Assembly (NCBI GenBank): GCA_029865945.1
Contig: JARXAH010000022.1
Location: forward strand, 1-43,663
Length of the DNA stretch: 43,663 bases
Source of the DNA: Bacteriovoracaceae bacterium
Lineage (GTDB): Bacteria > Bdellovibrionota > Bacteriovoracia > Bacteriovoracales > Bacteriovoracaceae
Reading direction: 5' to 3'
Shown here piece after piece: positions 5,250 to 19,569 of this stretch. A program made the translations under genes and the position numbers. The notes beneath the pieces were generated by a model. It was given only the letters and a program-made list of their open reading frames with translations. It ran no database searches and was not told the DNA's origin. The first letter of the stretch is position 1; each line of letters opens with the position of its first letter.

Positions 5250-6371
5250 ATGGATCATCCCATAAAGAGAGATCATTCCCGCTTTCGCAAGATTGTGAAA
5301 GGAAAAATTCGCGACGGGCTTCGCAAATATATTTCTCAAGGCAAACAAATTGTTCCCAAGGGTAATGGCTCCTTCTCGATACCCATGCCATCGATTGATA
5401 TCCCTCGTTTCAAATTTGGAGATAAATCCCAAGGGGGAACGGGGCAAGGTGATGGCCAGGAGGGGGATCCCGTTCAAGGTGGCCAGGGACAAGATCAACC
5501 CGGCCAAGGAAATGAAAAACCGGGCCAACAAGAAGGCCAAAAAGAATTAGAAATTGAAATGTCTTCGATTGAGCTCGCCAAAATTTTAGGTGAGGAGTTA
5601 GAGCTTCCCAATATTTTGCCTAAAGGAAAAAAAACCATTCCTTCCGCGATTAATCGCTACACCAGTATTGGAACCGTGGGGCCGGATTCTTTGCGCCATG
5701 TGAAGCGAACTTTTAAAGAATCGCTTAAGAGGCAAATTTCTCTTGGCCAGTATGATCCCAATAATCCCATCATTATTCCTACGAGACGCGACATGCGTTT
5801 TCGCTCAAGCAACGTGAAAGTGGAAAATGAAAATTCCGCCGTTGTGATTTACATGATGGACGTCTCAGGATCGATGGGGGATGAACAAAAAGAAATTGTG
5901 CGCACGGAGAGTTTTTGGATTAATTTGTGGCTTAAAAGTCAGTACAAAGATATTGAAATTCGCTACATCATTCACGATGCGACCGCCAAAGAAGTGGAAG
6001 AAGATACTTTTTTTCGCACCCGTGAAAGTGGAGGAACGCTCATCTCATCTGCTTATAAAATTTGTGCCAATATCATTGAGCAAGATTACAATCCCAATGA
6101 GTGGAACATTTATCCGTTTCATTTTTCAGACGGAGATAACTGGTCGAGCGATGACACCAAACTTTGTTTGCAAATTATGAATGAACAACTGCTACCAAAG
6201 TGTAATATGTTTTGCTACGGCCAAGTGGAGAGTCGCTACGGCTCTGGACAATTTTACAAAGATCTTGTGGCCGCTTACGGCGATAAATCCGACAACGTTA
6301 TTTTAAGCAAAATAAAAAACAAAGAGGGAATCCTCGAATCAATTAAAGATTTTCTAGGCAAAGGAAAATAA
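5250..6371 (+). CDS. DUF444 (YeaH/YhbH) family protein
   Basis: This 373-residue protein belongs to the DUF444/YeaH/YhbH family that travels with PrkA. The N-terminal 60 residues are basic. Residues 61-97 are a Gly/Gln/Pro-rich low-complexity linker. A von Willebrand A-like domain follows, with the metal-ion site D-V-S-G-S starting at D204. The C-terminal part has the family's HFSDGDNW segment. Family members act with PrkA in stress signalling, though the biochemical role is not settled. GGAGG lies upstream of the ATG, which is 9 bp after the prkA stop. Confidence 0.94.
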
Positions 6372-6383
6372 AGAGGTTGAATA

Positions 6384-7910
6384 ATGCTTCGAAGTAAATC
6401 CATCTCTGGAGCTCTAAGACAACTGCAACAACAAATTGAGGCCTACGCTCGCGGTTATGGCCTAGATTTTTTCCCTCAAATTTTTGAAGTTTGTGATTAC
6501 GACACCATAAATATTTTGGCCGCGCAAGGTGGATTTCCCTCGCGTTATCCTCACTGGCGTTTTGGTATGGACTACGACCAAATGTCTAAGGGGTATGCTT
6601 ACGGGCTACAAAAAATTTATGAAATGGTGGTGAATACGGATCCTTGTTACGCTTATCTCTTAGAAGCCAATAATTGGGTTGATCAAAAAATTGTGATGGC
6701 CCACGTCTATGCACACAATGATTTTTTTAAAAATAATGCGTGGTTTGCCAATACTGATCGGCGCATGATGGATCAGATGGCCAATCATGGAGTGAAGATT
6801 CGTCGCTACATGGAAAAATATGGTGTGGACCGAGTGGAGAGTTTTATAGACAAGGTTTTATCTTTAGAAAATTTACTTGATCCCATGGAGCTTTTCGAGA
6901 CCCAGGAAATTAAGCGTCGCCGCGAAGAGCTAGAGAAGCAATTTTTTGATGAGAAGGGAAAGACTCCTGACATGCTTGATCAACACAGCAGTGAGGCCCT
7001 TCGCTCCTACATTCGGGCCAAACTGCAAGAAGAAAAGAAAAAAGATTTGCTCAAGGCCAAAGAAAAATCAGCTGCCAAAGAAATTAAAAAAAGTTCCGCA
7101 ATTGAAACGCCCATGCGCGACATCTTGCTTCTTCTCATTCAATTTGCACCACTCGAAGAATGGGAACTTGATGTGATCGGTATTTTACGAGAAGAGGCCT
7201 ACTACTATCTTCCGCAGCGCATGACTAAAATTATGAACGAAGGGTGGGCCAGTTATTGGCACTCCAAAATCATGACCGAGAAAGCGCTCGATGGTAGTGA
7301 AATTTTAGATTTCGCCGATAAGCATAGTGGTGTCATGGCGATGTCGAGGCAGCAAATTAATCCCTACAAGGTCGGGATTGAACTCTTTCGGGACATTGAA
7401 TATAGGTGGAACACCGGGCGCTTTGGAAAAGAATATGTTGAATGTGAAGACATGGAATTGAAGGCGAAATGGGATCGTAAAACGAACTTAGGACAACAAA
7501 AGATTTTTGAGGTGAGACGCACTCACAATGATATTTCATTTATTGATCAATTCTTCACCCAAGAATTTTGCGAACGTCAGCAAATTTTTACTTATAAATT
7601 TAATCCCAAAACTAGTCGCTATGAAATTGAAAGTAGAGAATTTGAAGCAATTAAGTCGAAGCTGCTTGCTCAACTTACCAATTTTGGTCAGCCAGTGATT
7701 GAGGCCGTTGATGATAACTACCAAAATCGATCAGAACTTCTTCTTGTGCATCGTCACTATGGAGTGGACCTCGATGTGAATTATGCTTCTGAAACACTGA
7801 GAAATCTTTTTGCCCTGTGGAAACGTCCGGTCAATTTACAAACAACCGTGGAAGATAAATCTGTGGTTTTTAAATTTGATGGAAAAGAATTTAAACACTC
7901 CTCACTCTAG
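6384..7910 (+). CDS. spoVR: SpoVR family protein
   Basis: A 508-residue protein matching SpoVR/YcgB in length and landmarks: WRFGMDYDQMSKGYAYGLQKIYEMVVN near residues 52-80, HVYAHNDFFKNN near 111-122, and MNEGWASYWHSKIM near 280-293. SpoVR is required for spore cortex formation in Bacillus, but it is widespread in non-sporulating bacteria next to prkA and DUF444, where its role is unclear. AGAGG lies 5 bases before the ATG, 12 bp after the preceding stop. Residues 185-235 are a charged, Lys/Glu-rich helical stretch. Confidence 0.95.
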   Translation: MLRSKSISGALRQLQQQIEAYARGYGLDFFPQIFEVCDYDTINILAAQGGFPSRYPHWRFGMDYDQMSKGYAYGLQKIYEMVVNTDPCYAYLLEANNWVDQKIVMAHVYAHNDFFKNNAWFANTDRRMMDQMANHGVKIRRYMEKYGVDRVESFIDKVLSLENLLDPMELFETQEIKRRREELEKQFFDEKGKTPDMLDQHSSEALRSYIRAKLQEEKKKDLLKAKEKSAAKEIKKSSAIETPMRDILLLLIQFAPLEEWELDVIGILREEAYYYLPQRMTKIMNEGWASYWHSKIMTEKALDGSEILDFADKHSGVMAMSRQQINPYKVGIELFRDIEYRWNTGRFGKEYVECEDMELKAKWDRKTNLGQQKIFEVRRTHNDISFIDQFFTQEFCERQQIFTYKFNPKTSRYEIESREFEAIKSKLLAQLTNFGQPVIEAVDDNYQNRSELLLVHRHYGVDLDVNYASETLRNLFALWKRPVNLQTTVEDKSVVFKFDGKEFKHSSL

Positions 7911-9633: not shown

Positions 9634-10914
9634 ATGATTTCATTTATGAAACTATATCTTAATATTAGAAAATTTATTTTGGGCCTTACTTTTATTCTTT
9701 CGGCGGCTCAGCCATGGGATGTCTTAGGTGAATTACCGATTAGACAAAAAAATTATTTAAATTGCTTAGGAATTAGCGGCTTTGCTGAAGCTTATAAATC
9801 TGATTTTTTGTGTAAAAAATTTGGTATTAAAACTATTTCTTCCAATAAAAACACGAGTAATATCGTAAGTGTAAATAAACATTACTCTTCAACTGCTCAT
9901 CCTAATAATCCGCACAGAATGATGTATGGAGTTGCTGCAGAAACAAAAGTCTTTGATGATAAAGATAACACTGTTCGCTGTTCAATAAAATCAAACGTTA
10001 CACTTGATTCGCAAAATAAGAAAGTTGTGGCCCTGAATTTTCAAGCTACAAATGGAGATAGGAATGAAGACTTTTTTGATTTCTTGGAACTAGATAAAAC
10101 GCACTTTGCAAATATAAAAAAAATTTGTCATTCTCAAAACATATTGAATGAAATGGGACGAGAAGTTTGTCAAAATTTTTTTGATACCTTTCGAGATGCT
10201 ATCTATCAACAGGCCTTATTAGAGTCCGGAAACTTTACATCGGATAAGTCACTGTGTCTTAATAATCATACTGGACTATCTATAGCAGGCCTTAATGGAC
10301 GAAATATTTTGGCCGATAGTGGAAGCACAAAAAAAGGAGATCTTGATCCTGTTGGAGCATTTGGAAGTTTGCAAGATTTTTTTGAGGCCTACATTCGTAT
10401 GATTTATACTCCCTTCTTTAAAACGAGTGTCGATGAAAGAAGTCAAAACCTAAAACTTGATTCCCCAAACAGTAAATTCTTCCATGGACTATGTATTCTC
10501 ATCGCAGATCAAAATTCTGAAGTTGAATTATCAACGGAAGAAATGTGCGCCGCCGTTTCTCATTGCCAATATAATTTTCAAAAAGACTATTCACCTTTTG
10601 TTAAGAAAAATCAGGCTGGCACGCGGTGGTATCTTAATGAGAGTGCGCCAGACTGTGAAAATCCCACCTCAAGAAAAATTGTAGAAACCAAAGTCGTAAC
10701 AAAAAGCAGCGACGGGTACATATCCTATACCGTCGCTCAGGGTGAAACTTTATATGGAATAGCGAAGTCTCGATGCGAAGATTTTCAATCTCAAAATTTC
10801 AATTCTCTCGGTGAATGTATCAATCTCCGCATAGATAAAATTCGCCAAGCAAATGATCTGAAATCTGACTCAACAATAAAAGTAGGTCAAAATTTAAAAA
10901 TTCCATCGCACTAG
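9634..10914 (+). CDS. Exported LysM-domain protein
   Basis: The 426-residue product has an N-terminal export signal (hydrophobic run FILGLTFILSAAQ, after a basic start) and a C-terminal LysM domain. The LysM begins YTVAQGETLYGIAK near residue 364 and ends KVGQNLKIP near 423. It is longer than usual because of a cysteine-containing insert. LysM binds peptidoglycan or related glycans, so the protein probably acts at the cell wall. The middle 300 residues, with about a dozen cysteines, are not a family I recognise; they may be a disulfide-rich enzyme or binding domain. The start could also be the in-frame ATG at 9646; neither has a strong ribosome site. Confidence 0.7.
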   Translation: MISFMKLYLNIRKFILGLTFILSAAQPWDVLGELPIRQKNYLNCLGISGFAEAYKSDFLCKKFGIKTISSNKNTSNIVSVNKHYSSTAHPNNPHRMMYGVAAETKVFDDKDNTVRCSIKSNVTLDSQNKKVVALNFQATNGDRNEDFFDFLELDKTHFANIKKICHSQNILNEMGREVCQNFFDTFRDAIYQQALLESGNFTSDKSLCLNNHTGLSIAGLNGRNILADSGSTKKGDLDPVGAFGSLQDFFEAYIRMIYTPFFKTSVDERSQNLKLDSPNSKFFHGLCILIADQNSEVELSTEEMCAAVSHCQYNFQKDYSPFVKKNQAGTRWYLNESAPDCENPTSRKIVETKVVTKSSDGYISYTVAQGETLYGIAKSRCEDFQSQNFNSLGECINLRIDKIRQANDLKSDSTIKVGQNLKIPSH

Positions 10915-10926
10915 TAGTGGAAATGA

Positions 10927-11568
10927 CTACTTAATCGCCTTCTCAATGGCTTCTTTTATATCTTTGTGATCCGGGGAAACACTAGATTTATATCTTCCAA
11001 CTAAAGTGCCATCTTTTCCGATGAGAAATTTTTCAAAATTCCAACCAATCTCTTCGTTTTTATTTTTTGTGTCGAGCTTAAGGAGGGCATCATACAATGG
11101 TTGCTTATCTTTCCCTTTCACTGAATTTTTTGAAAACATAGGAAAGGTAACTTGGAACTTGGTCTTACAAAATTTTGCAATTTCTTCGTCCTTGCCAGGC
11201 TCTTGTCCGTTAAAGTCATTGCTTGGAAATCCTAGGATAACAAAATTTTTATCGCCGTAGGTTTTATATAATGCTTGGAGCTGTTCATACTGAGACGTAT
11301 ATCCACATTGTGAGGCCGTATTCACGATGAGTAAAACTTTGTTTTTGTACTCACTTAACGTTGTCTCTTTTCCTTCAATGGTTTTAACTTTGATATCGTA
11401 GAGAGAAGGGGAATTTTTATCCTGCGCCTTCGCCTGCACTTGTGTCTGGGCATTTTCCTGCTTTTTTTCCTGCTTCTTGTCCTCTTTCTTGGTCGCGGCA
11501 TGCAACCCAAATTGTGAAGTTAAAAAAAGAATCAAAATTGAAGCTATCCCTAATTTAAAATGTTTCAC
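10927..11568 (-). CDS. Exported glutathione-peroxidase family protein
   Basis: This 213-residue protein has a signal peptide (residues 1-24), a Lys/Gln-rich linker (26-50) and a complete glutathione peroxidase domain. The peroxidatic cysteine is C88 in NTASQCGYT, with Q122 in NDFNGQEPG and W176-N177 in GWNFEKF as partners. It uses cysteine, not selenocysteine. Most bacterial members take electrons from thioredoxin rather than glutathione. The signal peptide places it in the periplasm. The start is GTG at 11568, supported by AAGGAG about 7 bases upstream. It diverges from the ovothiol operon, so a functional link to low-molecular-weight thiol redox chemistry is possible. Confidence 0.92.
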   Translation of the reverse strand: MKHFKLGIASILILFLTSQFGLHAATKKEDKKQEKKQENAQTQVQAKAQDKNSPSLYDIKVKTIEGKETTLSEYKNKVLLIVNTASQCGYTSQYEQLQALYKTYGDKNFVILGFPSNDFNGQEPGKDEEIAKFCKTKFQVTFPMFSKNSVKGKDKQPLYDALLKLDTKNKNEEIGWNFEKFLIGKDGTLVGRYKSSVSPDHKDIKEAIEKAIK

Positions 11569-11892
11569 GGTCTCTCCTTAAAAAAATGTCTATAGATTCA
11601 ACTAAATTCTGTTTCATCTGCCAGGCTTTAGCAACTACCTAAGGCGCAAAATAATGAATTCTTTTTTCCTTCACTTAAAGGGCCCATCAACTGATCTAAT
11701 AATAACTTTTGCACAACTCATTTTTTAAGAAAAATTTACAGAGACTTCGTATAAAAAAATTTGGGTTTCGATAAGAATTTCCTACTTGCTGTTAAGTTTT
11801 TGAAAATATCAACATAGCTGTCGCCCTTACTCGGCTTTTGAGCTATCATCACCAGATATCTTCTTAAATCTAAATTCTAAAAAAATGAGTAA
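11569..11892. other. Divergent intergenic region with a hairpin
   Basis: The 324 bp between the peroxidase and the ABC-ovo operon should hold both promoters. A hairpin with a 7-bp stem (11625-11631 / 11639-11645, one G-U) and 7-base loop lies in what would be the peroxidase leader. I could not match it to a known riboswitch, and no promoter hexamer pair stands out. Confidence 0.4.
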
Positions 11893-12702
11893 ATGATGGT
11901 TCGAAAATTTTCTAAATTGTCAAAATTATCTTATCTATTCTTGGGTATGAATTTACTTCTTTCTCAAGTCCTATTCGCATCGCCTTTAGAAAAAAATTTA
12001 GTCGTCGGAATGGAATTGTCTTATCCTCCCTTCGAGATGACGGATGCTCAAGGGGTTCCCTCGGGAGTGAGCGTGGAGTTGGCCAAGGCGCTCGCACAAC
12101 ATTTAAAGCGAGAATTAAAAATTGAAAATATGTCCTTTGATGGACTGATTCCCTCGCTTAAAACCGGAAAAATTGATCTCATTATTTCTTCTATGACAGC
12201 GACAGAAGAGCGTGAGAAATCGATTGATTTTTCCACTTCCTATTTGAAAACTGGACTTGCCCTTCTTCTCAATTCAAAATCGTCTGCGAAAAGTATTTCT
12301 GACCTAGACGCTTCCAAAAAAATTATTGTTGTTAAAAAAGGAACCACAGGGCATCAGTACGCAAGCAAGAATTTAACATTGGCCACCATTCACGTCCTAG
12401 ACAAAGAGTCATCTTGCGTTCTTGAAGTCATCCAAGGCAAGGCCGATGCTTTCATCTATGATTCCATGTCGGTGTATCAAAATCACAAGCGAAACCTTGA
12501 TACCACCAAAGCAATTTTAACTCCTTTCAAGGAGGAATTCTGGGCCATAGGAATTCGTAAAGGGAACAGTGAACTGAAAAAATCCGTAGACGAATTTTTG
12601 ATCAACTTTAAGCAAGCTAAAGGCTTTGAGGTATTAGGAGATAAGTTTCTTAAAGAAGAAAAAGATTATTTTCAAAAAAATCATATACCATTCTATTTTT
12701 AG
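11893..12702 (+). CDS. Amino-acid ABC transporter, substrate-binding protein
   Basis: A 269-residue periplasmic binding protein of the polar amino acid (SBP_bac_3) family. It has a signal peptide (about residues 1-29), then LVVGMELSYPPFEMTDAQGVPSGVSVELAKALA and the lobe-1 signature GLIPSLKTGKIDLIISSMTATEER. The closing part FWAIGIRKGNSELKKSVDEFL is typical of family 3. The ligand cannot be read from sequence. Because the same operon makes ovothiol from histidine and cysteine, one of these or a related thiol amino acid is an attractive guess. The permease begins 2 bp after its stop. Confidence 0.92.
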   Translation: MMVRKFSKLSKLSYLFLGMNLLLSQVLFASPLEKNLVVGMELSYPPFEMTDAQGVPSGVSVELAKALAQHLKRELKIENMSFDGLIPSLKTGKIDLIISSMTATEEREKSIDFSTSYLKTGLALLLNSKSSAKSISDLDASKKIIVVKKGTTGHQYASKNLTLATIHVLDKESSCVLEVIQGKADAFIYDSMSVYQNHKRNLDTTKAILTPFKEEFWAIGIRKGNSELKKSVDEFLINFKQAKGFEVLGDKFLKEEKDYFQKNHIPFYF

Positions 12703-12704
12703 TC

Positions 12705-13451
12705 ATGAAATTGATGGAAAAAAAAATTCTTTCTTACCTTTTAGTTCTATCGCTTTTTTTTCTTTTTCTTTTTTGGTCTTTTCATCAACTTAACTATCAG
12801 TGGAACTGGAGTGCCGTTTATGAATACCGATCCAAATTTATCTCGGGGTGGCTAACGACCGTGGCCATGAGTCTTGCCTCACTCATCCTCAGTAGCATGA
12901 TTGGCCTTTGCGGATCTCTTTTTCTCCTAAGTCGATCAGAAATTTTGAAGGCGACTGCTCGTGTCTATATTGAAACGATACGCGGAACTCCTTTCTTAGT
13001 GCAGCTCCTCATTATATTTTATGTTGTTGCTAATGCCCTTGGAATTGAAAATCGATATTTCGTAGGAATAGTTTGCATGTCGCTATTTAGCGGTGCCTAT
13101 ATGGCAGAAATTATTCGTGGGGCGGTTAATTCTATTGAGAAAGGCCAGCTAGATTCTGCGCGCGCCATCGGCCTTACCTCGATTCAAACTTACCGACTGG
13201 TCATTTTTCCTCAGGCCATGCGCTTAATCCTTCCTTCTATGGCCGGTCAATTTGTCTCTCTCATCAAAGATTCTTCCTTGCTCTCTGTGTTGGCGATTTC
13301 TGAATTTACCCTCAATGTTCAAGAGGTGAACTCCTTCACCTACAGCACCATGGAAAGTTATTTGCCGCTCGCTCTTGGCTATCTGCTTCTCACGATGCCG
13401 CTCTCACTTTTTATCCAAATTTGGGAAAAAAGGTGGCGCTATGAAGCTTAG
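12705..13451 (+). CDS. Amino-acid ABC transporter permease
   Basis: A 248-residue inner-membrane permease of the HisM/GlnP family. An N-terminal membrane helix (LSYLLVLSLFFLFLFW) is followed by the family motif ETIRGTPFLVQLL and the EAA-like coupling loop (IRGAVNSIEKGQLDSARAIGL, then PQAMR), which contacts the ATPase. It starts 2 bp after the binding-protein gene and overlaps the ATPase gene by 11 bp, so the three are co-translated. A second possible start is 12714. Confidence 0.94.
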   Translation: MKLMEKKILSYLLVLSLFFLFLFWSFHQLNYQWNWSAVYEYRSKFISGWLTTVAMSLASLILSSMIGLCGSLFLLSRSEILKATARVYIETIRGTPFLVQLLIIFYVVANALGIENRYFVGIVCMSLFSGAYMAEIIRGAVNSIEKGQLDSARAIGLTSIQTYRLVIFPQAMRLILPSMAGQFVSLIKDSSLLSVLAISEFTLNVQEVNSFTYSTMESYLPLALGYLLLTMPLSLFIQIWEKRWRYEA

Positions 13452-14193
13452 GCTTAATCAAGTTTCCCAATCCTTTAACCATCAAGAAATTTTGCACCAG
13501 ATTTCTTTTTCCACCAGCGACATTCAAGGATTGGGGATCATTGGCCCATCTGGTGGTGGTAAGTCTACCTTGCTTAGAATTTTAGCTGGCCTTGATATTC
13601 AAAATCTAAACACTAAAATGAATCAGGCACCCGGAGAGATTTTTTTTGATGAAAAAAAATTAAATTTTGATGGAAAATCACTTCATCTCCACCGAACGAA
13701 AATGGGGGTCGTGTTTCAATCATTCAACCTTTTCCCTCACTTGAGTGCCTGGGATAATCTGATGCTACCCCTTATTCAAGTGCATCATTGGGAGCTGAGC
13801 AAGGCCAAATTGCGGTTGGATGCATTATTGAAACGTTTTCAACTTTCCATGCACGTCCACAAATTTCCATCCCAATTATCAGGCGGTCAAAAGCAACGAA
13901 TGGCCATTATCCGGGCGATCTCTCATCATCCAGAAATTTTATTTCTCGATGAACCTACCTCGGCCTTAGATCCAGAGATGGCAAGCGAAGTTTTGCACAT
14001 GATTTTAGATTTAAAAAAAGAGGGAACTAAGATCGTTTTAGTGACACATCAAATGGATTTTGTTAAAAGAGTGGCCGATGAGATTGCTTTTTTGAGTCAA
14101 GGAAAACTAGTCGAATTTGCAAAAACATCCCTCCTCTTTAGTTCTTCGTCGCAGGTAGAAGTGGTTCAATTTTTTCAAAAAATATTACTATAA
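13441..14193 (+). CDS. Amino-acid ABC transporter ATP-binding protein
   Basis: A 250-residue ABC ATPase of the polar amino acid type (GlnQ/HisP). Walker A is GPSGGGKST (35-43). The Q-loop lies in VVFQSFNLFPHLSAWDN, the signature is LSGGQKQRMAI, Walker B is ILFLDEPTSALDPE, and the switch histidine is in LVTHQMDF. The start at 13441 (MKLRLNQVSQ) was chosen over an in-frame extension to 13375, which only reads through the permease gene. Its TAA stop overlaps the first possible ATG of ovoA by one base. Confidence 0.94.
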   Translation: MKLRLNQVSQSFNHQEILHQISFSTSDIQGLGIIGPSGGGKSTLLRILAGLDIQNLNTKMNQAPGEIFFDEKKLNFDGKSLHLHRTKMGVVFQSFNLFPHLSAWDNLMLPLIQVHHWELSKAKLRLDALLKRFQLSMHVHKFPSQLSGGQKQRMAIIRAISHHPEILFLDEPTSALDPEMASEVLHMILDLKKEGTKIVLVTHQMDFVKRVADEIAFLSQGKLVEFAKTSLLFSSSSQVEVVQFFQKILL

Positions 14194-16367
14194 TGGAGTC
14201 CTCCATGAACAGATCCTTTCCATCTATCAAACCGATAACATTGTCCGGCGCGAATGTTGAAAGTAAGCGCGCTGAAATACGAAATTATTTCATTGAGAGC
14301 TATGATCTTTACGAATCATTATATTCACTTATCAAAAGTGAAACGTCCTATTTTTACAGATACGAACCCTTAAGACATCCGCTCATTTTTTATTTTGCTC
14401 ATACGGCCACCTTCTTCATCAATAAACTCATCACGGCCAATCTCATCACAAAACGAATTAACCCCGACTTAGAATCCTTAATGTCTGTCGGAGTTGATGA
14501 GATGTCGTGGGATGATTTAGATAAAACAAATTATGATTGGCCTTCAGTTCGAACCGTGAAGGAATACCGAAATTTAGTGAAGGAATTAGTCGTTCAATTT
14601 ATTGATACCATGGATCTCAAGCTCCCCATTACCCAAGAAGATCCTGCATGGATCATTCTGATGGGGATAGAACACGAACGTATCCATCTTGAAACGTCTT
14701 CTGTGATCATGAGGCAGATGCCATTAGATTTATTACACTGCGAATCTGGAGTTTGGCGAAGTTGCAAGCTCACAGAAGCTAAGGTAGGCGCCAATAGTTT
14801 ACTTCCGGTCAAAGAAAAAAAATTGCAGCTAGGAAAATCCATCAATGATGAAACCTATGGATGGGATAATGAATATGGAGTTTCAGAGCACCAAGTGGGC
14901 CCTTTCCTTGCTTCCAAATATTTAGTTAGCAACCAAGAATTTCTGGAATTCGTTTTAGATAAGGGGTATCAGACAAAAAAATATTGGACGCAAGACGAGG
15001 GATGGCCCTGGGTTCAATTTTCAAAGGCCTCCCACCCCAGGTTTTGGATCAAAGAAAAGGGAAGTGAAGGGCAAGAGATATTTTTTCAAAGGAACTTACT
15101 AGAAAGGATTCCACTGCCACTAAGTTGGCCAGTAGAGGTAAATCAATTAGAGGCCCACGCTTTTTGTGAGTGGAAAGCTTCAAAATTGAAGCAAAAAATT
15201 GCGTTGCCCACAGAGGCCCAGTGGTATGCGCTTTGCGAAAATATTTCCGATACCGATTGGCAAAATCTTTCATCTAATATTGGACTCATGCACGGCGCCA
15301 GCTCTCATCCTGTTGATCAATTTAAGCAGGGAGATTTTTTTGATCTACGCGGAAATGTATGGCAGTGGACTAAAACTCCGATTTATCCCTTCACTGGATT
15401 TAAAGTTCATCCTACTTATGATGATTTTTCTGTTCCTACTTTTGATGGAAGGCACAATTTAATGAAAGGGGGATCATGGATCTCCACCGGGAATGAAGCG
15501 ATTAAGAGTTCACGGTATGCTTTTCGAAGGCACTTTTATCAGCACGCAGGATTTAGGTACGTGCAAAACTTTGTCGACTCAGATGATTATGCTGCTTATT
15601 CTTCAGGTAGTTTCATTTATGAAACTGACGATTCCGTCGCCCAGTATATTGAATTTCATTTTGGTGAGGATTATTTTTCAGTTCCTAATTTTCCCAAAAA
15701 TTGCATCGAGCAACTGTTAGCTTTTATTCCCAAGGGGCAAAGGGCCCGCGCCCTCGATTTAGGCTGCTCTGTCGGGCGATCGTCTTTTGAATTATCAAAG
15801 TATTTTTCTCATGTGGATGCTATTGATTTTTCAACCAGATTTATCCAGGTGGCCGATCGTATGCAAAACGAAGGATCCATTCACTATGAAGTGGTGAGGG
15901 AAGGAAAAATAAAAGAGCGAAAAACTGTGGAATTAAAAACATTTTCTGAAAATCATAAGTTTGCATTTAAAAATATCCATTTTTCTCAAGGAGATGCTTG
16001 TAATTTGAAATCACAATTTCATTCCTATGATGTGGTCTTTGCTGGGAATTTAATTGATCGCTTGTACGATCCACGTCTGTTTTTAGAAATGATTGCCGGC
16101 AGAATTCTTCCAGGAGGATTCCTTGTCCTCACTTCTCCCTATACTTGGCTTACAGACTATACCCCTCATGATAAATGGATTGGTGGGAGAGTGGAGTCAG
16201 GAGGGAGTCCCATTTCGACCATGAGTGGACTTAAATCTATCTTGGAAGGTGCGAGTGACCATAAATTATCCTTACTTGAATGTAGGGACATCCCCTTTGT
16301 CATTCGTGAAACTGCAAGAAAATTTCAGCACTCAATAGCTGAAATGAGTATTTGGAAAAAAGTATAA
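14193..16367 (+). CDS. ovoA: OvoA: 5-histidylcysteine sulfoxide synthase / methyltransferase
   Basis: This 724-residue protein has the full OvoA architecture. An N-terminal DinB-like four-helix domain carries the iron ligands H70 (FAHTATFF), H161 and H165 (HERIHLE, an H-x3-H-x-E motif). A formylglycine-generating/EgtB-type sulfoxide-synthase domain follows at about residues 215-465, with LRGNVWQWT and a GGSWIS...FRRHFYQHAGFRY ending. A C-terminal SAM methyltransferase has DLGCSVGRSS near 522. In characterised systems OvoA joins cysteine to histidine C5 with O2 and, after OvoB acts, methylates the imidazole nitrogen. GGAG sits 6 bases before an in-frame ATG at 14205, which may be the true start (720 aa). 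The gene overlaps the ABC ATPase stop, so it is coupled to the transporter. Confidence 0.95.
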   Translation: MESSMNRSFPSIKPITLSGANVESKRAEIRNYFIESYDLYESLYSLIKSETSYFYRYEPLRHPLIFYFAHTATFFINKLITANLITKRINPDLESLMSVGVDEMSWDDLDKTNYDWPSVRTVKEYRNLVKELVVQFIDTMDLKLPITQEDPAWIILMGIEHERIHLETSSVIMRQMPLDLLHCESGVWRSCKLTEAKVGANSLLPVKEKKLQLGKSINDETYGWDNEYGVSEHQVGPFLASKYLVSNQEFLEFVLDKGYQTKKYWTQDEGWPWVQFSKASHPRFWIKEKGSEGQEIFFQRNLLERIPLPLSWPVEVNQLEAHAFCEWKASKLKQKIALPTEAQWYALCENISDTDWQNLSSNIGLMHGASSHPVDQFKQGDFFDLRGNVWQWTKTPIYPFTGFKVHPTYDDFSVPTFDGRHNLMKGGSWISTGNEAIKSSRYAFRRHFYQHAGFRYVQNFVDSDDYAAYSSGSFIYETDDSVAQYIEFHFGEDYFSVPNFPKNCIEQLLAFIPKGQRARALDLGCSVGRSSFELSKYFSHVDAIDFSTRFIQVADRMQNEGSIHYEVVREGKIKERKTVELKTFSENHKFAFKNIHFSQGDACNLKSQFHSYDVVFAGNLIDRLYDPRLFLEMIAGRILPGGFLVLTSPYTWLTDYTPHDKWIGGRVESGGSPISTMSGLKSILEGASDHKLSLLECRDIPFVIRETARKFQHSIAEMSIWKKV

Positions 16368-16372
16368 AGGAC

Positions 16373-17512
16373 ATGAATTTACATCCCTTGCCCCATCGTA
16401 AGTTTATTAACAACCTTCGCTCGATCGCAAACATTACGGACAATTTAAGTAATGCTTGTGCTCCGGCCACCTCTGTTTCTGACTGGGTGAGTGAAGAAAA
16501 AATTTTAGAAATCGCAAGACTACCCTCAACTTACGTTTCAGATCTGGGATCTTGGGAGTTACGAAAAACTATTGCCGATCTCTATATCCGACGTCCCTCT
16601 CACCCCATCGATCCTGAAGATGTCATCGTGTTTACCGGTGCCCAAGAGGCCATCTTTGCCTTGCAGATTTCTCTTCTAGGCCCTCATGATGAAGTCCTCG
16701 TGGTGACTCCCACTTATGGAAGTATGATGAGCTTTCTTTTGAGTTTAAAAATTAAAATCATTGAAGTTCCGCTTTCCCAAGAAAATTCTTGGAAGATCAA
16801 CGTTTCAAAAATTGAACAATCCCTTACTCCTCGTACAAAATTAATTTCTATTAACTTTCCCAATAACCCCATCGGCGTGGATCTCACCCCCGAAGATAAA
16901 GGAGAGTTGGCCAAACTTTCCGAAAAATATAATATTCCTATCCTATCTGATGAAGTCGGGCTTTGGACAAAGTCCCAAACAGATCTCGGAAATTGGAAAG
17001 GCGATGCCTTATCTAGTTACTCCGATAAAGTAATTTCCCTAGGTGTGACTTCTAAAAGCTTTGGATTACCTGGTATTCGGCTCGGGTGGCTGATTGTGCG
17101 TGATCAAGGGATCAGAGAAAAAATTCTTAGCGTAAAAACTCACCTCTCCATTTGTAGTAGTCAAATAGATGACTTCCTAGCGGTAGAAATTTTTAAGCGT
17201 GCAGATGAAATCCTCGTGCACCACAATCAAATGATTGAAGAAAATAAAACTAAGTTTGCTTTATTTTGTAAAAAACACTCCCATTTATTTCGGTATCAAA
17301 AAGTAGATACGGGGGTGACAGGGATAGTGGAGTTCGTTTCTTCTCTCGACGTCAAAGAATTCTCTCACTCACTGGCCATGAAAAATCAACTACTCATGAT
17401 TCCTTCAGAATTTTTTTATCTACCCGGAAATTTTTTTCGAATCGGTTTTGGAGCAAAGAATTTTAGTGAAATGCTGGAGAAACTGGAAGATTTTATTTTG
17501 AAAACTTCTTAA
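16373..17512 (+). CDS. ovoB: OvoB-type PLP-dependent C-S lyase
   Basis: A 379-residue fold-type I aminotransferase-like enzyme. SINFPNNPIG and SDEVGLW are the cofactor-contact segments, and the PLP lysine is K228 in GVTSKSFGLPGIRLGW. Directly after ovoA, it is best read as OvoB, which cleaves the sulfoxide intermediate to 5-thiohistidine. A generic aminotransferase is the alternative. The ATG at 16373 follows an AAAGG; a TTG at 16352 inside ovoA is possible but less likely. The 3' end overlaps the convergent FabI-like gene by 20 bp. Confidence 0.88.
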   Translation: MNLHPLPHRKFINNLRSIANITDNLSNACAPATSVSDWVSEEKILEIARLPSTYVSDLGSWELRKTIADLYIRRPSHPIDPEDVIVFTGAQEAIFALQISLLGPHDEVLVVTPTYGSMMSFLLSLKIKIIEVPLSQENSWKINVSKIEQSLTPRTKLISINFPNNPIGVDLTPEDKGELAKLSEKYNIPILSDEVGLWTKSQTDLGNWKGDALSSYSDKVISLGVTSKSFGLPGIRLGWLIVRDQGIREKILSVKTHLSICSSQIDDFLAVEIFKRADEILVHHNQMIEENKTKFALFCKKHSHLFRYQKVDTGVTGIVEFVSSLDVKEFSHSLAMKNQLLMIPSEFFYLPGNFFRIGFGAKNFSEMLEKLEDFILKTS

Positions 17513-18302
17513 CTACATTTTCATCAAAATAATTGGCACCCATACCCGCGTCCACCGTAATCACTTGCGCATTAATTCCAGAGCTCATCGAGCTAAGTAA
17601 AAAAGTGATCGCGTTCGCCACTTCTTGGGTATCCAAATTTTTCTTTCTTAAGGTGAGAGCTTCGCTATACAAGTAGTGCTCGATGTAGTTGGGGATCCCT
17701 GCAGAGGCCGAAGTCTTAAGTGGGCCAGCGGCCACCGCATTGAATCTTATTTCACCACTCAAACCACTTTCACCACTCTTAACATTCATTAGCGAAAAAG
17801 ATTTTGCTAAATAGTCGACCAAGCTATTGAGCATCGCCTTGATAGGCCCTAAATAACCATAGGCAGTGGCCCTGGTATTAGAAATGGAAACGGTTACCAC
17901 TGAAGCGCTCGCATTAAAGTGATTTTTAAAAATTCGCGATAATTCTACCAGCGAAAAAGCACTTATCCTTGTCGCCTCTTGGAAGTTTTCCCAACTTGTT
18001 TCATGAAAGGGAACAGGATTTTGAAAATTAGCGTAGGCCAGGCAGTGGAGTAGTCCATCTATTTTAGGCAACGTGACCATTTCTTTTGAAAAATTTTCAA
18101 TCGATGTTGAGGATCCCACATCAAGCAAAAATATCTTTTCATTCGGAAATTCTTTTTCTACAAAATTTTTTTGTGTTTCATTTTGGACACTAAAACTTAA
18201 AAGCGATCCCAAACTTTGAAGTTGCTTTGCTGTCACATAAGCGACACTTTTTTTATTTGAAATCCCCGTAATAAAAAAATGCTTATTTTTTAAATCAAAC
18301 AT
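17493..18302 (-). CDS. FabI-like enoyl-ACP reductase (SDR), variant active site
   Basis: A 269-residue protein of the FabI division of the short-chain dehydrogenases. The NAD-binding opening TGISNKKSVAY matches FabI's 'GVASxxSIAxG'. The catalytic block is AYGYLGPIKA, keeping Y-x6-K. The first tyrosine of FabI (Tyr146 in E. coli numbering, in 'SYLGAERA') is replaced: the segment reads TVSISNTRATAY, with Ile there and about two residues fewer before the second Tyr. It may be a true enoyl reductase or a paralogue for another acyl substrate. Last gene of a four-gene operon, 2 bp after its neighbour. Confidence 0.8.
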   Translation of the reverse strand: MFDLKNKHFFITGISNKKSVAYVTAKQLQSLGSLLSFSVQNETQKNFVEKEFPNEKIFLLDVGSSTSIENFSKEMVTLPKIDGLLHCLAYANFQNPVPFHETSWENFQEATRISAFSLVELSRIFKNHFNASASVVTVSISNTRATAYGYLGPIKAMLNSLVDYLAKSFSLMNVKSGESGLSGEIRFNAVAAGPLKTSASAGIPNYIEHYLYSEALTLRKKNLDTQEVANAITFLLSSMSSGINAQVITVDAGMGANYFDENVVKKFSK

Positions 18303-18304
18303 AA

Positions 18305-18805
18305 CTAAAGACTATTCCCAGCATCACGATCAATCAGGGCAACTGCAAATTCTAAAGTAATTGCTACTTTTTGTTGAACGAGAATTTTTCCTCTCAAAAA
18401 AGCAACGTCACCCATTTTTTCTAATAATTGAACATGCCCCTCACTCTTATCTCCTGGGCGAACGATTTGTTTAAATTTGGCTTCACTCATTCTGGTCACG
18501 ACTGGCGTTCCATTTTTGATACCTAATTTACCTTCTTTACCCTCTTTAACTTCTTTACCATCCTTACCTTGCTGTAAAGACATCCACAAGGCCCCGCACT
18601 GCAAGAGCATCTCACACAAAATGACCCCCGGAACAACCGGATTGCCAGGAAAATGTCCTTTCAAAAAATATTCATCCTCTCGCCAGGTATAAACGCCATG
18701 AAGGGAATTTTCGCTAGCATCCAAAATTTCATCGACAAACAAAAATGGATGGGCCTGGGGAATAAGTTTTGAAGGGTGAGGAAAGTGCTTATTACTCGAT
18801 TCCAT
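18305..18805 (-). CDS. FabZ/FabA-like 3-hydroxyacyl-ACP dehydratase
   Basis: This 166-residue hotdog-fold protein has the FabZ landmarks: HPFLFVDEIL, then FLKGHFPGNPVVPGVILCEMLLQ with the catalytic His and Glu. Between the long helix and the next strand is a low-complexity Lys/Gly/Glu insert (about KDGKEVKEGKEGKLGIKNG), encoded by a short repeated DNA motif at 18528-18568. FabZ itself is usually about 145-150 residues, so the insert accounts for the extra length. Both neighbours are 2 bp away, so the genes are co-translated. Confidence 0.85.
   Translation of the reverse strand: MESSNKHFPHPSKLIPQAHPFLFVDEILDASENSLHGVYTWREDEYFLKGHFPGNPVVPGVILCEMLLQCGALWMSLQQGKDGKEVKEGKEGKLGIKNGTPVVTRMSEAKFKQIVRPGDKSEGHVQLLEKMGDVAFLRGKILVQQKVAITLEFAVALIDRDAGNSL
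18528..18568. repeat. Degenerate short tandem repeat inside a coding gene
   Basis: Five near-copies of a CTTTAC-like unit (with variants such as CTTTAACTT and CCTTACC) encode the Lys/Gly/Glu-rich insert of the FabZ-like protein. The tract is in frame. Such tracts can change length by slippage. Confidence 0.6.
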
Positions 18806-18807
18806 GA

Positions 18808-19569
18808 TTATAGTCCACCGGTCACGTCGATAGTGGATCCGGTGATGTAGGTAGTCGTGGGAAGCGATAAAAATAACACCGCACCGGCCACATCTTGAAC
18901 TGATCCAAAGCGCTTCATGGGCACTTGATCGATGTATTGCTTCTTGAGAGCTTCAGGCAAATCACTGACTAAATCCGTTTCAATAAATCCCGGTGCCACA
19001 TTATTGATGGTGATATTTCTTTTTGCCACTTCTTTACTCAAAGATTTTGCGAAAGCAATTTGTCCGGCCTTGGAGGCGGAATAACTCGTTTGCCCCGGAA
19101 GGCCAATGGTGGCCGCCAATGAACTGATGTTCACAATGCGCCCATACCTAAAGCGAAGCATTCGGTCTACGGCGAGCTTAGTCATGTTGAACGTTCCACC
19201 AAGATTAGTTTGAATAACTTGATTCCAATCGACTTCGGTCATGAGGGGAAGCAGATTATCTTTTCTGATTCCAGAATTATTAATCAGCACGTGTACTTGA
19301 GGATACTTTTCATCAAGAGATTGATAAAATTTTTGACATTCACTAAAGGAGCTTACATCAAATTTTCTTAAATCTAAGCGCTCTTGTTCGTCAGCACTTA
19401 AAGATTTTTTAAATTCATTGGCCGCTTGATCATTGGATTGGTACGTGGCCACGACTTTCGCACCAGCACTTAAAAAGCATCTTGCAATGCCCGCGCCAAT
19501 TCCCCGCGTTGCGCCAGTGATAATAACAACATGATCTTTAAGATCATTTTTTAATTCATTTGATGACAT
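18808..19569 (-). CDS. FabG-like 3-oxoacyl-ACP reductase
   Basis: A 253-residue classical short-chain dehydrogenase. The cofactor loop is TGATRGIGAG, followed by VLINNSGIRKD. The catalytic residues are S in NISSLAATIG and Y-x3-K in SYSASKAG, and the C-terminus is ITGSTIDVTGGL. These fit FabG, which reduces 3-ketoacyl-ACP with NADPH. As it sits between a desaturase-like gene and dehydratase/reductase genes, it probably serves the same acyl chain. TAGG precedes the ATG. Confidence 0.9.
   Translation of the reverse strand: MSSNELKNDLKDHVVIITGATRGIGAGIARCFLSAGAKVVATYQSNDQAANEFKKSLSADEQERLDLRKFDVSSFSECQKFYQSLDEKYPQVHVLINNSGIRKDNLLPLMTEVDWNQVIQTNLGGTFNMTKLAVDRMLRFRYGRIVNISSLAATIGLPGQTSYSASKAGQIAFAKSLSKEVAKRNITINNVAPGFIETDLVSDLPEALKKQYIDQVPMKRFGSVQDVAGAVLFLSLPTTTYITGSTIDVTGGL

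Follow-up and report, generated by a model that had tools for sequence, protein, structure and literature searches.

A window of DNA from a Bacteriovoracaceae bacterium (the whole stretch of 43,663 nucleotides that was analyzed, which is one whole contig of a 3.08-Mb, 96% complete genome, G000) carries five plus-strand genes, 11893-17512, encoding in order a solute-binding protein, a permease, an ATPase, a fused OvoA, and an OvoB-type pyridoxal phosphate (PLP) enzyme. The first three would form an amino-acid importer, which probably has some function in the ovothiol pathway. Tentatively, we take its most likely cargo to be a 5-thiohistidine-type amino acid (5-thiohistidine, ovothiol, or the disulfide) that is taken up in a salvage role, a reading drawn from sequence comparisons. 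The evidence comes from a Planctomycetota family in which orthologous importer genes stand beside the ovothiol genes, including genomes where the N-methyltransferase OvoM stands alone.

Linkage of the importer to ovothiol genes

OvoA relatives numbered 585 in the genome collection, and the best 80 of the 585 loci were examined. The preliminary description had left co-occurrence of the transporter with ovoA elsewhere to be checked; orthologous transporter genes were located upstream of ovoA, on the same strand, at 11 of these 80 loci (L016, L017, L019-L023, L025, L026, L035, and L037), and none at such high scores were found in the rest of the 80. All 11 host genomes belong to one Planctomycetota family; most are titled Planctomycetota, and that of L020 just 'bacterium'. 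In the planctomycete loci an ADP-ribosylglycohydrolase-like (DraG-like) gene lies between the ATPase gene and ovoA, and ovoB is mostly missing. A chance neighbourhood was rejected, because the gene order is conserved in this second phylum.

The family was also analyzed in full. Among its 72 genomes the binding protein was detected in 60, and OvoA or its methyltransferase half in 61; 53 genomes had both, 7 had the binding protein only, 8 had the ovo gene only, and 4 had neither. The ovo locus was tabulated for all 61 Ovo-bearing genomes. The DraG-like gene was directly upstream of ovoA or ovoM at 57 of 57 loci with at least 600 bases upstream, the ATPase gene was upstream in 50 of 50 genomes with at least 1.9 kb, and the permease gene in 48 of 48 with at least 2.5 kb. 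In most cases the binding-protein gene came next after the permease gene. G700 and G732 had it at a distance of 11-13 kb, G740 carried it on the opposite strand, and in some other family genomes it was undetected or on another contig. Four of the seven genomes with the binding protein only were cut at a contig end, and the other three had 4-7 kb of partner-free flank. This arrangement, with orthologs upstream of ovoA or ovoM throughout the family, supports the proposal, made in the preliminary description, that the ovothiol pathway has a dedicated transporter. The one copy of the DraG-like protein that was scanned (L019:5807-6829) matched PF03747 with 131 bits, and no PDB match was found for this protein.

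At locus L289 the order is binding protein, permease, ATPase, DraG-like protein, OvoA, and OvoB, which is the window operon plus one gene. This is the only one of the 61 Ovo-bearing family genomes with an orthologous OvoB behind ovoA (229 bits). Relatives of the window OvoB-type enzyme were found directly behind ovoA in L040, L044, L052, and L065, nearby in L056, and also in L289. Elsewhere in the 14 planctomycete ovoA genomes, a window-type OvoB was rejected, the scores (at most 70 bits) being those of generic aminotransferases.

The binding-protein orthologs scored 247-328 bits, a wide gap from the other proteins, which reached at most 174 in the genome searches. In a tree, the 53 orthologs, the window protein included, formed one side of a branch with a starred support of 99, versus 68 other proteins; a 181-bit match in L255 was unclassified and was left out of the trees. 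Orthologs were present in 12 of the 14 planctomycete ovoA genomes. The preliminary description had allowed that the arrangement might be unique to this strain; the planctomycete orthologs contradict this in general, but it stands within the sampled part of the window's own phylum, where an ortholog was found in 1 of 339 genomes, namely the window's own. The sample of the planctomycete phylum gave 1 of 294 genomes. No ortholog was found in 398 Pseudomonadota genomes at E 1e-40, a set that had no positive control, and no match was found on plasmids at E 1e-25.

Genome G156 (L266) has a more distantly related binding protein (163 bits). An OvoM-like methyltransferase is encoded there divergently from the transporter, at 5278-6447 on the minus strand; its TIGR04345 score of 147 bits falls short of the 170-bit cut-off. 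This arrangement is a further, weak hint of a tie between transporter and methyltransferase.

Genomes with a stand-alone OvoM

Fifteen of the 61 Ovo-bearing genomes matched the methyltransferase half only. Two of these, G712 and G714, were rejected as OvoM-only and dropped, because the ovo gene was cut by the contig end and grouped with fused OvoA. In the remaining 13 genomes (G708, G710, G711, G744-G747, and G749-G754) the importer genes and the DraG-like gene are followed by a stand-alone OvoM at the operon end (loci L245-L256 and L258). No sulfoxide synthase was found genome-wide at E<=1e-4 in these 13 separate multi-contig drafts. The same search detected the enzyme in 46 of the 72 family genomes, and a similar search reached distant sulfoxide-synthase relatives, with about 25% identity, in other genomes.

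The three stand-alone OvoM proteins that were scanned matched TIGR04345 with 269-281 bits, and one stand-alone OvoM matched the solved OvoM 9bxl with 256 bits. The dN/dS values were 0.06-0.19 in 8 of 8 pairs, showing purifying selection, and 46 of 56 near-invariant OvoM columns were kept in all 13 copies. Since the importer is kept where no sulfoxide synthase was detected, its constant partner is the N-methyltransferase and not the enzyme that couples histidine with cysteine. That it is retained where OvoM stands alone suggests the substrate or the product of this enzyme as the ligand.

Phylogeny of the ovothiol enzymes

The methyltransferase tree was built after 26 of 109 rows had been removed as near-copies by genus. 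The transporter-linked methyltransferase domains, the window's included, formed a group with a starred support of 96, which excluded the OvoA of the same-phylum genome L002 and of the same-family genome L003. The sulfoxide-synthase tree gave a transporter-linked group with a support of 79, not starred. The window methyltransferase is on a long branch (0.89). The two trees indicate that the window unit shares ancestry with the planctomycete unit and not with the ovoA of the window's relatives. The simplest reading would be a transfer between the phyla, in either direction.

Ligand pocket of the binding protein

The binding protein was aligned to GlnH, HisJ, ArgT, and TcyJ of Escherichia coli. 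Arg107 and Asp190, the alpha-amino-acid (zwitterion) anchors, were invariant in 50 sequences; they are equivalent to Arg75 and Asp157 of GlnH, which we take to be the anchors of that protein. The other pocket residues are Glu41, Tyr44, Phe82, Ser99, Ser100, Thr102, Lys148, Tyr189, and Trp217, and the conserved C-terminal tail ends in IPFYF. In the 50 sequences, which come from two phyla, 13 of 16 first-shell positions were invariant, versus 66 among all 234 columns; the hypergeometric P, 7e-6, is a guide only, since the positions were picked from GlnH contacts and the sequences are related. The pocket is identical to none of the four E. coli pockets. As predicted, it fits an alpha-amino acid, and it is strongly conserved across the two phyla. 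Glu41 and Lys148 could read the imidazole N-H and the thiolate of a thiohistidine, or an amide as in GlnH.

A mean pLDDT of 83.7 was obtained for the predicted structure of the binding protein; its best structural matches were amino-acid binding proteins with Z about 25, and many such proteins matched it at Z 23-26. Naming the ligand from the closest structure was rejected, because the matches in this range bind lysine, arginine, glutamine, glutamate, cysteine, and others. The protein reached the cut-off of no named equivalog model among the matches listed, scoring 65.6 bits for HisJ (cut-off 459), 114.7 for the cystine protein TcyJ (cut-off 312), and 121 for GlnH (cut-off 303).

Proposed role of the importer and alternatives

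We propose one ovothiol unit in which an ATP-driven amino-acid importer would work together with OvoA and OvoB and would be tied closest to the last step. The binding protein would capture 5-thiohistidine, ovothiol A, or their disulfides after the cell or its neighbours had released them, and the permease and ATPase would bring the captured thiohistidine into the cell, where OvoM would turn 5-thiohistidine into ovothiol A by methylation. A cell that also has OvoA and OvoB, like that of the window, would in addition make ovothiol from histidine and cysteine. Import is the presumed direction, from the binding-protein-dependent architecture, and the enzyme activities of the unit are predicted from sequence similarity. 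The preliminary description had suggested that the transporter might supply a precursor or recover the product, with histidine, cysteine, ovothiol, and 5-thiohistidine as its candidate ligands; the 13 genomes without a detected sulfoxide synthase weaken the precursor half, and product recovery fits better. A more specific scenario is conceivable, though we hold it doubtful: a planctomycete lineage without the oxygen-dependent sulfoxide synthase would take up the 5-thiohistidine of others and finish it with OvoM, the DraG-like hydrolase of the planctomycete operon may release 5-thiohistidine from an N-glycosylated or ADP-ribosylated form, and the importer of this salvage or cross-feeding system would be a dedicated transporter of 5-thiohistidine or ovothiol.

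Several observations weigh against uptake of a thiohistidine. Arg549 and Gln599 (window numbering) are changed in 12 of the 13 stand-alone OvoM proteins, so their substrate might differ. In seven of the 72 family genomes the binding protein occurs with neither OvoA nor OvoM. The DraG-like gene, constant in the planctomycetes, is missing from the window operon, and the scheme assigns it no firm role. The transporter is lacking in most ovoA genomes: orthologs were found in 0 of 49 non-planctomycete ovoA genomes, a search that started from 50 of the 66 such loci. Glu41 and Lys148 resemble the Asp10/Lys115 pair of E. coli GlnH, which would allow glutamine or another polar amino acid as the ligand. 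Finally, the window genome gave only one other match to this binding protein, of 47 bits, and, at its 96% completeness, no Histidinol_dh match, both of which fit a plain histidine importer or a general one.

The last point leads to the main rival, which we consider unlikely, that the importer brings histidine for OvoA and, in a histidine auxotroph, couples uptake with use. Histidinol_dh was found in 29 of 34 genomes searched and in 13 of 14 controls. The window organism is therefore probably a histidine auxotroph in which imported histidine would be useful, and this keeps histidine supply as a rival to product recovery there. Family-3 binding proteins also include histidine binders, and the Arg107/Asp190 anchors and Ser99/Ser100 match HisJ. 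However, side-chain positions of the pocket are unlike HisJ (Lys148 for Leu117, Phe82 for Leu52, and Tyr189 for Gln160), and the HisJ equivalog score is far below its cut-off. Histidinol dehydrogenase was present in 12 of the 13 OvoM-only genomes and in 17 of the 20 OvoA-bearing planctomycetes searched, which therefore should not need to import histidine, and the importer is kept in genomes where no sulfoxide synthase, the enzyme that uses histidine, was found.

A general importer of polar amino acids such as glutamine, a mere positional neighbour of the ovothiol genes, seems less probable still. In its favour, the binding protein is nearly the sole family-3 binding protein found in the window genome, and the Glu41/Lys148 pair recalls the glutamine-reading pair of GlnH. 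Against this, the neighbourhood is conserved across two phyla and the whole planctomycete family, the linked methyltransferases group together, and orthologs are rare elsewhere (1/339 and 1/294). Import of cysteine or cystine for OvoA is very improbable: the family includes such binders (2yjp, 1xt8, and 3zsf are among the structural matches) and Glu41 and Tyr44 are common to E. coli TcyJ, but the pocket otherwise departs from TcyJ (Ser99/Ser100 for Asn/Gln, Lys148 for Gly, and Phe82 for Trp), the cystine equivalog score is low, and the importer persists where the cysteine-using enzyme was not found. Uptake of a 5-thiohistidine-type amino acid is our preferred, tentative reading.

Gene order and neighbours in the window

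The features of the unit are listed in Table 1. The preliminary description gave exactly the coordinates 11893-17512 and noted that the transporter set runs tightly into ovoA and ovoB, which was borne out by junction gaps and overlaps of 1-11 bases: there is a 2-base gap between the binding-protein and permease genes, an 11-base overlap between the permease and ATPase genes, a 1-base overlap (TAATG) between the ATPase gene and ovoA, and a 5-base gap between ovoA and ovoB. From this spacing and the order conserved elsewhere, the five genes appear to be co-transcribed as an operon. A consensus scan for terminator-like sites gave none between the genes on the plus strand and one weak match within ovoA, with fewer sites than in shuffles. 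A promoter consensus scan likewise gave fewer matches than in shuffles; the region in front of the unit is the likely site of a promoter.

Table 1. Features of the ovothiol unit in the window
Feature	Position	Strand	Basis or remark
Periplasmic solute-binding protein, family 3 (polar amino acid type)	11893..12702	+	SBP_bac_3, predicted structure
ABC importer permease (His/Glu/Gln/Arg/opine type)	12705..13451	+	BPD_transp_1, TIGR01726
ABC importer ATPase	13441..14193	+	ABC_tran; ATG 13441, longest open reading frame from TTG 13375
OvoA, sulfoxide synthase (residues ~14-457) fused to OvoM N-methyltransferase (~476-723)	14193..16367	+	TIGR04344, TIGR04345, 8khq
OvoB-type PLP beta-lyase, aminotransferase class I/II fold	16373..17512	+	Aminotran_1_2; start ATG 16373 or TTG 16352
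Region between the ovothiol unit and the divergent glutathione-peroxidase-like gene	11569..11892	.	likely promoter site

All three parts of a polar amino-acid ABC importer scored above their cut-offs: the family-3 binding protein matched SBP_bac_3 (PF00497) with 116.9 bits (cut-off 26.4), the HEQRO-type permease matched BPD_transp_1 with 82.5 bits (cut-off 26.4) and TIGR01726 with 78.6 (cut-off 42.2), and the ATPase matched ABC_tran (PF00005) with 104.2 bits (cut-off 25). The sulfoxide synthase domain of OvoA scored 643 bits with ovoA_Nterm TIGR04344 (curated cut-off 400) and the methyltransferase domain 284 bits with ovoA_Cterm TIGR04345 (curated cut-off 170), and the full-length protein matched the solved OvoA 8khq in PDB with E 8e-234. 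The motifs HTATFF (70), EHERIH (160), and HPTYDDFS (406) are kept; the iron ligands and the tyrosine that acts in catalysis presumably lie in HTATFF, EHERIH, and YDDFS. The OvoB-type enzyme, which adjoins ovoA, matched Aminotran_1_2 with 137.8 bits (cut-off 19.7) and has the PLP-lysine motif TSKSFG, and no curated OvoB model was among the NCBIfam matches shown for it. It is a putative C-S lyase acting on histidylcysteine sulfoxide or sulfide.

A glutathione-peroxidase-like gene (10927-11568, minus strand; GSHPx 130 bits) is divergent from the unit, with about 320 bases between them. It was rejected as a pathway partner, because no relative was present at the other fetched loci. Just upstream, at 9634-10914 on the plus strand, a LysM-domain protein with a weak glucosaminidase match is encoded. 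Downstream, a row of minus-strand genes (17493-19569) converges on the unit. The first encodes a FabI-like reductase; the other two, identified only by eye from their translations, would encode a probable dehydratase of the FabA/FabZ type and a FabG-like reductase.

Relation to known systems

The window has the same enzymes in the same order as the canonical ovoA-ovoB operon, and its OvoA is above both curated cut-offs. Unlike that operon, the window unit is headed by a complete three-gene amino-acid importer, and the planctomycete units add the ADP-ribosylglycohydrolase-like gene and are sometimes reduced to the methyltransferase. The importer has the superfamily and architecture of HisJQMP, TcyJLN, and GlnHPQ of E. 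coli, but it forms its own orthologous group and has its own pocket. The stand-alone OvoM of the planctomycetes matches 9bxl, one of the solved stand-alone N-methyltransferases OvoM/OvsM (9bxl and 9bxh); it differs from these in lying behind an importer, in genomes without a detected sulfoxide synthase.

EgtU is described, in the accessible part of its report, as an ergothioneine ABC importer found nearly only in Firmicutes, with an osmoprotectant-type (cluster F) binding domain for a betaine (PMC9732360). As far as that part goes, EgtU is like the window importer in being a binding-protein-dependent ABC importer for a histidine-derived thiol, the thiol ligand being a proposed one for the window importer. 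By the same account the window importer differs in having a separate family-3 binding protein, whose Arg/Asp anchors suit a free amino acid, within a biosynthetic operon. No osmoprotectant-type family of the EgtU kind matched the window binding protein at E<=0.001; the best Pfam match was SBP_bac_3. The accessible part of another report describes 5THNAT, a 5-thiohistidine N-acetyltransferase tied to 5-thiohistidine by its ovoA neighbourhood, and an OvoA without the methyltransferase module (PMC12631010). As presented there, 5THNAT is a modifying enzyme and not a transporter, and its OvoA is the converse of the OvoM-only case.

No ovothiol transporter is mentioned in the accessible parts of PMC9103826 and PMC10903977, and no transporter of ovothiol or 5-thiohistidine was found described in open-licence PubMed Central papers, although a subscription paper could still have one. 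In the same literature, the conserved combination of these known enzyme and transporter families was not found described. If the importer is indeed dedicated to this pathway, ovothiol would be, like ergothioneine, a shared good that is taken up by microbes, and the OvoM-only bacteria should turn external 5-thiohistidine into ovothiol.

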